From Magnetococcales bacterium (GTDB taxonomy: Bacteria; Pseudomonadota; Magnetococcia; Magnetococcales; JADFZT01): a stretch of DNA of 36,029 nt. The stretch lies in the NCBI GenBank assembly GCA_015232395.1, contig JADFZT010000049.1, forward strand, positions 1 to 36,029, given 5' to 3'. The position numbers and the translations under genes are program-made. Shown here piece after piece: positions 32,601-36,029 of this stretch. Each line of letters opens with the position of its first letter. Positions within the stretch are counted from its first letter, which is position 1. The notes below the pieces were generated by a model that was not told the DNA's origin, did no database searches, and was given only the letters and a program-made list of their open reading frames with translations.

Positions 32601-33113
32601 TTAACACGATCTCTCCCCCTTTTCTTGTTCTTCTTCCGTGCGTTTGCGGATGAGGCGTTTGAGGGACATTTTCAGCAGCACCGCCTTGAGGGGGGGGTGG
32701 GGAATTTTTTCCACCAGTTTTTGTGCTGCCGCGATCTCATAGGGGAGGGCTTCGGGGAGCGGGGGAGGGGGCTTTTTGCGGGTGATTTTGAGGCGGGAGG
32801 TGAGGGTTCCGGTTTGAAAGCGAATATCCTTGATGCGGTGTTTGGCATCCAGGCTGTTGAGCTTTTGCAGGAGTTGGGGCTTCAGGAAGGAGAGCTGTGT
32901 TGCCCAGGCGGGGGAGTCCACCCGGATGGTGAGGGTGCCTTCCTTGAGGCGGGTGGGCTCGGTGTGGCTAGCCAGTGTTGCCCCCACGGCTTCTCGCCAG
33001 GGCTTCCAGATTTTCATGGCGCGATTGCGGGGGTTGTCGAGAAATCTTCCCGCAACCGCTTCGATCAACGATCCCACCGCCACAGGCTTGCCGGATTTGC
33101 GTTTTTTGGCCAT
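32601..33113 (-). CDS. DciA-like (DUF721) replication helicase-loading protein
   Basis: The 170-aa protein contains a DUF721 domain at about 15-125: VGSLIEAVAGRFLD, IWKPWREAVGATLASHTEP, GTLTIRVDSPAWATQLSFL. DUF721 proteins of this type (DciA) interact with the replicative helicase in bacteria lacking DnaC. The C-terminal Arg/Lys/Pro-rich part is probably flexible. The start at 33113 (MAKKRKSG) fits the family's basic N-terminus; a longer frame to 33152 is not favoured. It is divergent from the cyclase-CHAT-STAND gene, sharing a 192-bp intergenic region. Confidence 0.82.
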   Translation of the reverse strand: MAKKRKSGKPVAVGSLIEAVAGRFLDNPRNRAMKIWKPWREAVGATLASHTEPTRLKEGTLTIRVDSPAWATQLSFLKPQLLQKLNSLDAKHRIKDIRFQTGTLTSRLKITRKKPPPPLPEALPYEIAAAQKLVEKIPHPPLKAVLLKMSLKRLIRKRTEEEQEKGERSC

Positions 33114-33237
33114 GCCTGGATGATTCCCCCAAATCCCCTGCCCGTCAAGCAAATCCCGCCTGTTTGGTGCATCCCGGCTCCTTGATTCCCTCTTTTTTCA
33201 GCTATTTTTCCCAGCCGCCCCCTTTTTTTGGCTGCAA

Positions 33238-33305: not shown

Positions 33306-36029
33306 ATGTCCCAATTTCTTAAAAACGCCCCCATTCTCTGCATCGATGTGGCGGGCTTTACCAAGCTCGGATCCATCCCCAAGCAACGGCTGCTGATTGA
33401 GCGGCTGCAAGGGATCGTGACGGAATCCGCCCGGTTTTTCATGGCCTATGGCAACGTCTGGAAAAAGTGGCGGCGGCATGGCACCGGGGATGGTTATTAT
33501 TTTATGCTGGATAATCTGCCCCCGGCGGTGGCGCTGAAATATGCCGATAACGTCGCCCGTGGGGTGGAAGCCCATCACCGGGAGCATGGGGAGAGCTTGC
33601 CGATTCAGCTGCGTATGGTGCTGATGTTTGGCGATGTGGAGCTGGTGGAGGATCAATATTTGGGGGATCCCCTCTCCGATGGCGAACGTTTTTTAAGCTA
33701 TCCCCCTTTGAAGGATCTCCTGGCCACCTCTGAACAATCCAGCGTGCTCATTCTTTCCGATCTGTTCTACACCCAGTGGCGTTTGGATCCGGCGCGTAAT
33801 GATCCCGAACTGGCTGTGGGGGATCCAAAATGGCAGCTTTTTTCCTTTGCCGACAAGCACGACAAACCGCACCAAGGCTATGTACCAGCCCCCGGCTTTC
33901 CGGAAACAGTCCCCTCACCAGACGCTGAACCCGAGCCACCTCCCCAGCTGCGGGTGTTGATCCTGCTCGGTCATTTTTTGGAGGAGCCGCTGCCGGAAGC
34001 GGTTCATAGCGCCCGATCCATGGTGAATGGTTGGCTGGCTTCGGGTTTGAACGTGGAGATTCGGGTGGAGCAGGCTTCTCTTGCAGCTCTCAAGCGGGAG
34101 GCGGGGCAGGGGATTGATCTACTCATTTTTTATGGCCATGGGGATGCTGGGGGGCGGCTTTTGTTCAAGGAAGGGGGGCTGGATTATGCCCGGCTCAAGG
34201 TGGGGGATCTGTGGGATAATTTATCCGCCGCTTTCATATTTGCCTGCCACGGCGCCACCTTTGCCCGGGAGCTGCCCTCCCCGTGGTTGGCTTTTACCGA
34301 CACCATCTGGCGGAGCGCCCCAAGGGGGTTCATGCAGGCGCTGATCCGCCACTTGCCAGGCAACACCCTCTCCCAGGCGATAGATCAGGCCAAGGCATCG
34401 ACTGAGGAGTTTATGGCGTCAAAATTCCCGGAGCTGCTCACCACCTCCACCCCCGATCCGGAGCTGCCCCCAATTTCAGCAGGAACGCCCACCCTGACCC
34501 GCCTCTCCCCGGGGCTCGCCACGGATCGGGTGGAGATGGATTATTATACGGTCTATTCCGAACGGGTCGATTATCCCGAGCATGACCCTTTCGTGGGGCG
34601 GATCGAAGCGTTGGAGACCTTGCTCAAAATTCCGGAGCTGGATGGGGATGATGATCCCCAGCGGGCGGTGTGGGTGAGTGGGGATGCCGGGTTGGGCAAG
34701 TCCGCCCTGCTGCGTCAGTTGGCTTTTATGGCGCGGGATATGGTGTTTCACGAAGCGGATCAGCCCCTGCACCTTTTCCAGATGAACTGCTGGTCCTACA
34801 CCAACGCCGAAGATCTGGAGCGCCAGATTCGAAAAAAAATCAGCCCCTTCTATGGCTTGGAAAAACCAGCCCACGCCTTACCCGCCCTCTTCAACCACCT
34901 GGCCGCCACCCCCCACGCCCGGCACCTGTGGATTTTGGATGATCTCACCTATCTTTCGGTGAAGCTGGATGGCACCAGTGAGGCACAAAAGTTGGTGACG
35001 CGGATTTTGCAGGGGGCGGCTGGGGCGGGGGTGGTGTTGCAGCTGGTGGTGAGCGCCAGACGCCCCGGAAGTAAACGATGGCCCGCCATTCCCCTGGGTC
35101 CATTGAGCCCCCATGAAGCCCAGGTGCTGGCACAAAACGTCATGAACCGGCTCTACGAATCCCCCCCCGATGAACCCGTTGAAGAGCTGCTCATGGGGGC
35201 GGAGCGTATTTTCCAATTTGTCCGGGGTTCTACCGCCCTCTATAAACGCGCCCTCTTTTTGGCCGCTGAAAATGGCATGGGCTTTCGGGAGCTGGCGGAG
35301 CGGCTGGAAACAGATGGTGATTTGGATCAGCAGTCCATCCATGAGCTGGCGGTTGCCATGGCCCGCTTTGAGGTGGAGCAGCTGAAGGAGCTGGAATCCC
35401 GCCACGGCTTTGCCTACCGCCACTTCATGGGGCTCTGCTACTCCCTCATGACCCGTACCGCTGGATTCAGCGAAGAGGAGCTGAAAACCTGGTTTGGCGA
35501 TCATTTCCAAGTCCCCGGATCCCGGGTCACATGGCAGATCGGCTGCAAAAACGGCCTCCGCCTGTTAACCCGACTGGGTTTTTTAAGCTTGCAGCGGGAT
35601 GGGGAGCAAAAAGGCCGCTACATCATGCCCCCCAACCAACGCCTCCCCCTCCGCTCCCTCCAGGATCCGGAAGCAACCCTCCCCGAACAAAAAATCCCCC
35701 TGCGTGGGGTAAGGGAGCGGGTTTCATTGGCTTTGGAGCGTGCAAAATCTGTTGGATTTGCAGCTGCCGGGGATTTTCAGGCTCTCGTTCAAGATTATAA
35801 AGACAATCTTCACGAGAGTGAGGCCGCTGGGGCGGTGTTTCAGGGGATGTTGGTTCAAGCCGAGTTGGAGTGGAAATATAAAAGGCCGGAGGCTGGAATC
35901 TCCATCTATGATGAAATCGTTGCCCTTTTTTATCAACACCGTAACCACTACCCATCCACAGAGGTGGTTGCTTCGGAGCCAGTGGCGAAGGCGCTTGTCA
36001 ACAAGGGTGTTCGATTGGGCCAGTTGGGA
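33306..36029 (+). CDS. Class III cyclase-like / CHAT protease-like / STAND NTPase / TPR multidomain protein (3' end beyond window)
   Basis: The frame is open for 908 codons to the window edge. Residues 1-190 resemble class III nucleotide cyclases: CIDVAGFTKL (metal Asp14) and GTGDGYYFM (second Asp62). In GDPLSDGERF the usual Asn of VNxAAR is Ser and the Arg is kept, so activity may be altered. A Pro/Glu linker (about 200-213) follows. Residues 215-375 look like a CHAT caspase-fold domain with the His/Cys dyad in FYGHGD (His278) and FACHGATFA (Cys314). Residues 425-560 hold a P-loop: Walker A GDAGLGKS (Lys465) and Walker B LWILDDL (Asp545-546), then helical STAND-type sequence. The end (GISIYDEIVALFYQH, VAKALVNKGVRLGQLG) is typical TPR. 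Such proteins are ligand-sensing switches. The gene is divergent from the dciA-like gene. Confidence 0.85.
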   Translation, partial: MSQFLKNAPILCIDVAGFTKLGSIPKQRLLIERLQGIVTESARFFMAYGNVWKKWRRHGTGDGYYFMLDNLPPAVALKYADNVARGVEAHHREHGESLPIQLRMVLMFGDVELVEDQYLGDPLSDGERFLSYPPLKDLLATSEQSSVLILSDLFYTQWRLDPARNDPELAVGDPKWQLFSFADKHDKPHQGYVPAPGFPETVPSPDAEPEPPPQLRVLILLGHFLEEPLPEAVHSARSMVNGWLASGLNVEIRVEQASLAALKREAGQGIDLLIFYGHGDAGGRLLFKEGGLDYARLKVGDLWDNLSAAFIFACHGATFARELPSPWLAFTDTIWRSAPRGFMQALIRHLPGNTLSQAIDQAKASTEEFMASKFPELLTTSTPDPELPPISAGTPTLTRLSPGLATDRVEMDYYTVYSERVDYPEHDPFVGRIEALETLLKIPELDGDDDPQRAVWVSGDAGLGKSALLRQLAFMARDMVFHEADQPLHLFQMNCWSYTNAEDLERQIRKKISPFYGLEKPAHALPALFNHLAATPHARHLWILDDLTYLSVKLDGTSEAQKLVTRILQGAAGAGVVLQLVVSARRPGSKRWPAIPLGPLSPHEAQVLAQNVMNRLYESPPDEPVEELLMGAERIFQFVRGSTALYKRALFLAAENGMGFRELAERLETDGDLDQQSIHELAVAMARFEVEQLKELESRHGFAYRHFMGLCYSLMTRTAGFSEEELKTWFGDHFQVPGSRVTWQIGCKNGLRLLTRLGFLSLQRDGEQKGRYIMPPNQRLPLRSLQDPEATLPEQKIPLRGVRERVSLALERAKSVGFAAAGDFQALVQDYKDNLHESEAAGAVFQGMLVQAELEWKYKRPEAGISIYDEIVALFYQHRNHYPSTEVVASEPVAKALVNKGVRLGQLG

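Follow-up and report, generated by a model that had tools for sequence, protein, structure and literature searches.

Does a single Magnetococcales reading frame join a nucleotide-cyclase fold to a CHAT protease, a STAND ATPase and a TPR sensor, and would such a protein serve immunity or ordinary signalling? The frame lies at the end of a 36,029-nucleotide stretch of DNA, the window, which is an entire contig (G000:C49); the gene is therefore truncated by the contig edge. The original prediction, made from this sequence, had read all four modules in the frame and proposed a signalling or defence effector.

Architecture of the truncated reading frame

The features of the locus are given below with their window coordinates, strand and supporting evidence.

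33306..36029, + strand: whole reading frame, 908 aa, open at the 3′ end, with no stop codon before the contig end
33306..33896, + strand: class III nucleotidyl-cyclase-like domain, residues 1–197 (AF2 and Foldseek; profile match to 3MR7, 2.5e-11)
33345..33347, + strand: codon of the metal-binding Asp14, invariant in 21/21
33477..33491, + strand: H58-G-T-G-D62, holding the base-reading position (His for Lys, 19/21) and the second metal Asp62 (21/21), in a register set via the 3MR7 alignment
33654..33689, + strand: Q117 at the canonical adenine-reading Asp position (Gln in 19/21), S124 at the canonical Asn position (Asn in L054 only) and R128, the transition-state Arg (21/21)
33942..34505, + strand: CHAT/caspase-fold (clan CD) domain, residues ~213–400 (AF2; Foldseek to SAVED-CHAT, 7e-7; weak Pfam)
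34137..34139, + strand: predicted catalytic His278 (YGHG), 12/12
34245..34247, + strand: predicted catalytic Cys314 (FACHG), 12/12
34584..35165, + strand: STAND/NACHT P-loop ATPase core, residues ~427–620 (Pfam NACHT at 453–574, E 1.5e-6, over the cut-off)
34680..34703, + strand: Walker A, GDAGLGKS; G462 and K465 invariant in 12/12
34929..34943, + strand: Walker B, WILDD; D546 in 11/11 rows reaching that point
35166..35837, + strand: post-ATPase helical/winged-helix-like region ending in a conserved PPNQR motif and flank, conserved among homologues, with weak similarity to the C-terminus of the Sll1717 ATPase
35838..36029, + strand: start of the TPR array, a first repeat and then the contig end, placed by alignment with complete homologues whose TPR units measure 129 bp
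32604..33152, − strand: divergent neighbour DciA (DUF721), outside the system (Pfam DciA, 4.5e-22)

The start codon agrees with that of homologues, M1 being shared by 20 of the 21 rows of the cyclase alignment. A frameshift or artefactual fusion was considered and rejected because several MAGs, independent of one another and belonging to different phyla, share the identical domain order.

The N-terminal domain adopts a class III cyclase fold in the AF2 model of residues 1–205 (pLDDT 82, pTM 0.84). Foldseek returned 126 PDB matches at E ≤ 0.001, the best at 3e-9, and the best 50 of the 126 are all class III adenylate or guanylate cyclases. A profile built from 21 relatives of residues 1–205 matched the PDB sequences of cyclase 3MR7 (2.5e-11) and Ma1120 (3e-5). 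Alignment profiles were needed for this, as phmmer with the single sequence found no match in the PDB. A Pfam scan of the window protein recognised the NACHT ATPase as its sole domain. The cyclase-like assignment predicted for residues 1–190 is thereby confirmed by structural matches.

The second domain is caspase-like in fold. The AF2 model of residues 207–433 (pLDDT 82, pTM 0.80; well modelled to about residue 406) retrieved SAVED-CHAT filament chains first (E 7e-7), then caspases and MALT1, as expected from the prediction of a caspase/CHAT fold at residues 215–375. In the predicted secondary structure, His278 follows directly after β3 and Cys314 after β4, as in caspase folds. Both residues of this dyad, located at the positions originally predicted, are invariant in all 12 sequences of the CHAT/STAND core comparison, including copies that lack the cyclase. 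By sequence, the resemblance is slight: the Pfam CHAT family PF12770 scored 13.8 bits against a cut-off of 24, below the curated threshold; scans of the 12 core members gave weak hits to Peptidase_C25 in seven and to CHAT in four; and a CHAT profile found only a chance match among PDB sequences. Profile–profile comparison with canonical Magnetococcales CHAT was non-significant, though His was paired with His and Cys with Cys. With so little sequence resemblance to canonical CHAT, the assignment rests on the fold search and on conservation, and the domain at residues ~213–400 is best treated as divergent CHAT-like.

The STAND-type ATPase is the module most readily recognised by sequence, with a NACHT match at residues 453–574 of 28.5 bits (Pfam cut-off 26.7) and Walker A and B motifs conserved as listed above. 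The region that follows (residues ~620–850) is helical and is not TPR. About one TPR unit falls inside the window, and the array is certain only through complete homologues (e.g., L029, L030, L031 and L055); the predicted TPR sensor region is thus upheld by these arrays, whereas the window itself contributes only the first repeat. Complete homologues in G024 and G019 measure 1126 and 1043 aa, respectively. With the proviso on the TPRs, the four-part architecture holds in its folds and motifs.

In L029, L031 and L055, the TPR arrays consist of 6.6–10 copies of 129-bp units that are 84–87% alike in DNA. Several homologues also stop at contig ends inside such near-identical arrays, which probably break assemblies; among the contigs of genome G000, no other was seen to carry the rest of the TPRs. 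The arrays of L029, L031 and L055 are likely a copy-number-variable sensor as well as a source of contig breaks.

A conserved but altered cyclase site in a separable module

The original prediction held that the cyclase-like domain keeps both metal-binding Asp residues and lacks the catalytic Asn, and the 21-row alignment bears this out. Asp14, Asp62 and Arg128, which are characteristic of active class III cyclases, are invariant throughout. The catalytic Asn position is occupied by Ser, Thr, Ile or Val in 20 of 21 rows (Ser124 in the window protein), with Asn retained in L054 only. In the register set through 3MR7, the base-reading positions carry His58 and Gln117 (19/21 each), replacing the canonical Lys/Asp; neither this purine-reading pair nor Glu/Cys is found. 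In PycC, an aromatic base-reading residue (Y50/F100/F60) is used, and F100 of EaPycC precedes the first metal Asp, D102, by two residues (PMC11224242); the corresponding position here is Cys, Leu, Ala or Thr across the 21 rows, never aromatic. Because the metal Asp residues, Arg, His58 and Gln117 are kept though Asn is replaced, the domain is, as judged from the alignment, a subfamily that conserves a site of its own, not a randomly decayed enzyme. These conserved residues speak for a maintained nucleotide site, whereas the lost Asn speaks against normal catalysis.

The distribution of the protein reveals that this domain is separable from the rest. Searching for the architecture in other genomes, as originally suggested, identified the CHAT-STAND core in 7 of 48 Magnetococcales genomes; a sample of 398 genomes of the phylum contained none in other orders. 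The core also turned up in single MAGs assigned to Chloroflexi, Planctomycetota and the deltaproteobacteria. Alignments were required here too, as a single-protein search of genome contigs gave no match. Of the 12 cores compared, 8 have the cyclase and four, all CHAT-STAND-TPR homologues, do not. The Magnetococcales copy in G034 (L030:8512-8565) is a natural deletion mutant, in which an in-frame loss has left strand 1 running directly into the CHAT linker. The other three are copies from elsewhere: L053 and L055 have no cyclase, and the N-terminus of L051 has in its place a hydrophobic stretch resembling a membrane helix. To account for cyclase presence on the core tree takes three changes, and well-supported branches force at least two of these. 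By this phylogenetic evidence, the cyclase is an optional part of CHAT-STAND-TPR proteins, gained or lost at least twice.

The same domain also heads proteins of ~1020–1100 aa with a NACHT ATPase and a C-terminal FGE domain (by Pfam for L034; by aligned N-termini, common length and C-terminal sequence for the others). A reverse transcriptase (RT) gene adjoins these genes in G012, G031, G028 and G020, and the L034 locus (L034:7406-13400, G012:C9) includes a bAvd gene. Comparison of repeat pairs, between the 3′ end of the gene and the RT-side region, placed the differences at template A in 17/17 cases in L034, 10/10 in L035 and 14/15 in L043, with a weak 12/21 in L037. These repeat patterns identify the cyclase-NACHT-FGE genes as targets of diversity-generating retroelements (DGRs) in the loci checked (L034, L035 and L043; less clearly L037). 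A second target lying beside them is a TIR-NACHT-FGE gene, so that in the paired targets, the cyclase-like module occupies the place of TIR in the partner. In a third setting, the domain opens a 531–608 aa protein, in which Pfam gives nothing beyond a sub-threshold cyclase, next to a MoxR-like AAA ATPase (bpMoxR match) and a double-FGE protein (L032:7306-13794, L039:3981-10015).

How the altered site is used may be explained in two ways beyond a purely accessory role. The domain could be catalytically active with a changed specificity and provide the protein's main output, CHAT then acting on its own protein or a partner. The invariant metal Asp and Arg residues, together with the near-invariant His58 and Gln117, are what such an enzyme would keep, and the domain is the sole N-terminal module of cyclase-NACHT-FGE proteins, whose partner bears TIR. 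This is hard to reconcile with the missing Asn in 20 of 21 rows, the non-PycC-like residue two before the first metal Asp and the four homologues devoid of cyclase, and we hold it to be rather unlikely. The domain could instead be a non-catalytic homotypic adaptor, similar to effector-associated domains, that recruits other carriers: several domain-bearing proteins coexist in G024 and in G019, and Kaur et al. 2020 report inactive cyclases in ternary conflict systems, in their vWA components (PMC7159879). An adaptor would have no need for strictly conserved metal and Arg sites, however, and some genomes carry cyclase-NACHT-FGE alone, with no CHAT carrier, which leaves this explanation rather doubtful as well.

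Gene neighbourhoods and the proposed receptor

In the window, no defence gene was recognised beside the gene, whose neighbours are DciA, divergently upstream, followed by HD-GYP and histidine kinase genes (the latter two named from sequence). Other loci have no synteny with the window beyond weak HD-GYP and kinase similarity, and neighbourhoods are not conserved between loci. Two loci have HD-GYP genes nearby, a possible sign of a role in ordinary signalling. The protein would then be a signalling or transcription-linked STAND ATPase like soluble adenylate cyclase, with CHAT serving regulated processing, not immunity. The cyclase-STAND-TPR order does resemble that of ADCY10-like proteins, of the soluble adenylate cyclase kind, and the HD-GYP and histidine kinase neighbours in the window are signalling genes. 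Against such a role, the cyclase is dispensable whereas the CHAT dyad is invariant, the canonical Asn and base-reading residues are missing, and defence-type partners are fused or adjacent at several loci; overall, we consider it unlikely.

The defence-type partners are of three kinds. The candidate defence genes HEC-01A/B are fused or adjacent in two of the seven Magnetococcales loci: in G042 (L029:270-5611), the cyclase-CHAT-STAND-TPR protein has a HEC-01A ATPase (4e-132) fused behind its TPRs, and HEC-01B (DUF4276) is the next gene, overlapping the end of the fusion gene; in G034, a HEC-01A/B pair lies ~2 kb upstream of the CHAT-STAND-TPR gene. Next to the gene in G024, and on the same strand, lies one for a TPR-CHAT protein; this adjacency may be due to chance, because a close paralogue in G019 lies away from that genome's cyclase-CHAT-STAND-TPR gene. 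In a Planctomycetota locus (L055:5159-7877), the CHAT-STAND-TPR gene has two others directly upstream, one caspase-like and one of 554 aa with no match. Separately, the caspase-like and CHAT-STAND-TPR products of L055 could form a proteolytic cascade.

Plasmid, phage and viral collections yielded no relatives of the protein and hence no link to mobile elements. PADLOC holds no model for the protein itself, nor was an Avs or bNACHT family match obtained. No CRISPR effector, Cas7-11/gRAMP included, was recognised among the neighbours scanned, the downstream side being missing as the window ends inside the gene. The conflict or defence role originally envisaged is thus supported in part: HEC-01 and caspase neighbours, the DGR-diversified NACHT-FGE kin with their TIR-NACHT-FGE partners and the occurrence of the cyclase-like module beside MoxR argue for it, whereas the window, with no defence gene, does not.

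We conclude that the protein is probably a bacterial immune-type receptor of the NLR-like (STAND) kind, in which the CHAT protease is the output and the cyclase fold an accessory module. This reading follows from the folds, Walker motifs, TPR arrays, the dyad in 12/12 and the Avs/bNACHT-like order, and also from the HEC-01 loci, the G024 TPR-CHAT gene, the L055 caspase, the DGR/TIR pairing and the gain and loss of the cyclase. Counted against it are the lack of a defence neighbour in the window, unconserved neighbourhoods, no mobile-element link, no PADLOC model, weak CHAT similarity, the possibly chance adjacency in G024 and HD-GYP genes near two loci.

For such a receptor, with a putative anti-phage role, we infer the following sequence of events. 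The C-terminal TPR array would sense an invader-linked protein or complex, upon which the STAND ATPase would switch and oligomerise. Clustering would turn on the CHAT protease through His278/Cys314, and cleavage of a target protein could lead to cell arrest or death, or start a cascade. The N-terminal cyclase-like domain would be a second, separable module retaining a metal/nucleotide site; oligomerisation may also bring these domains into the obligate cyclase dimer, where they would either make an unusual cyclic nucleotide or bind a nucleotide that gates the complex.

More tentatively, and with the balance still against it, the domain may be a new Magnetococcales immune signalling module, a class III fold in which His/Gln read the base and Thr/Ser stand in for Asn, and its task would be to make or sense a non-canonical (cyclic) nucleotide. 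The module would be common to CHAT-STAND-TPR proteins, DGR-hypermutated NACHT-FGE proteins (with TIR-NACHT-FGE) and the MoxR-type system, and one oligomerisation switch would gate both proteolysis and a nucleotide signal. The window protein itself combines two candidate outputs of different chemistry, proteolysis of the caspase type and a domain with a nucleotide site, on a single NLR-like switch, and one modified cyclase domain is passed among several putative immune chassis, including receptors with a retroelement-hypermutated sensor. An active cyclase may define a defence nucleotide of a new kind, and an inactive one would be a clean example of an enzyme fold turned immune adaptor.

Relation to known conflict systems

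Each part of the protein is known. We found no description in the open-licence literature of the four-domain combination, the conserved altered cyclase site or its sharing among chassis. The overall order of N-terminal effector, central STAND ATPase and C-terminal repeat sensor (here TPR) is that of the antiviral Avs/bNACHT proteins (reviewed in PMC10907252), from which it differs in an effector part made of CHAT plus a cyclase-fold module, and in matching no PADLOC model by sequence. TPR-CHAT (Csx29) of Craspase shares a caspase-fold CHAT protease with a His/Cys dyad (H585/C627; PMC9729208) and TPRs. However, Csx29 has no STAND ATPase or cyclase, is under Cas7-11/gRAMP control, and carries its TPR before CHAT, whereas here it follows STAND. 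SAVED-CHAT, the top structural hit of the CHAT domain, is a protease switched on by filament assembly; it differs in its SAVED sensor for cyclic oligoadenylate and in lacking STAND and TPR. Pycsar PycC has in common the class III cyclase fold, two metal Asp residues and, for PycC, use in phage defence; the window protein departs from it in having Leu/Cys/Ala/Thr at the aromatic position, and no receptor partner was seen.

The DGR and MoxR loci match conflict-system types of Kaur et al. 2020 (PMC7159879) and Dore et al. 2024 (PMC10907252). Like the DGR-diversified STAND-FGE sensors of Dore et al., the Magnetococcales NACHT-FGE proteins with a cyclase-like module come with RT, Avd and A-specific changes in the variable repeat; the window protein, in contrast, has a TPR sensor instead of FGE, plus CHAT. 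Magnetococcales are not named in the main text of Dore et al. In the portions of Kaur et al. consulted, where the four-part protein is not described, cyclases and caspases are known conflict-system modules, and VMAP/MoxR ternary systems reuse cNMP cyclases, caspases, STAND and FGS(FGE). Those are three-gene systems built around MoxR-vWA, whereas the window protein is a single polypeptide built around STAND with cyclase and CHAT. The three-gene cassette of L032 and L039 resembles a MoxR ternary conflict system.
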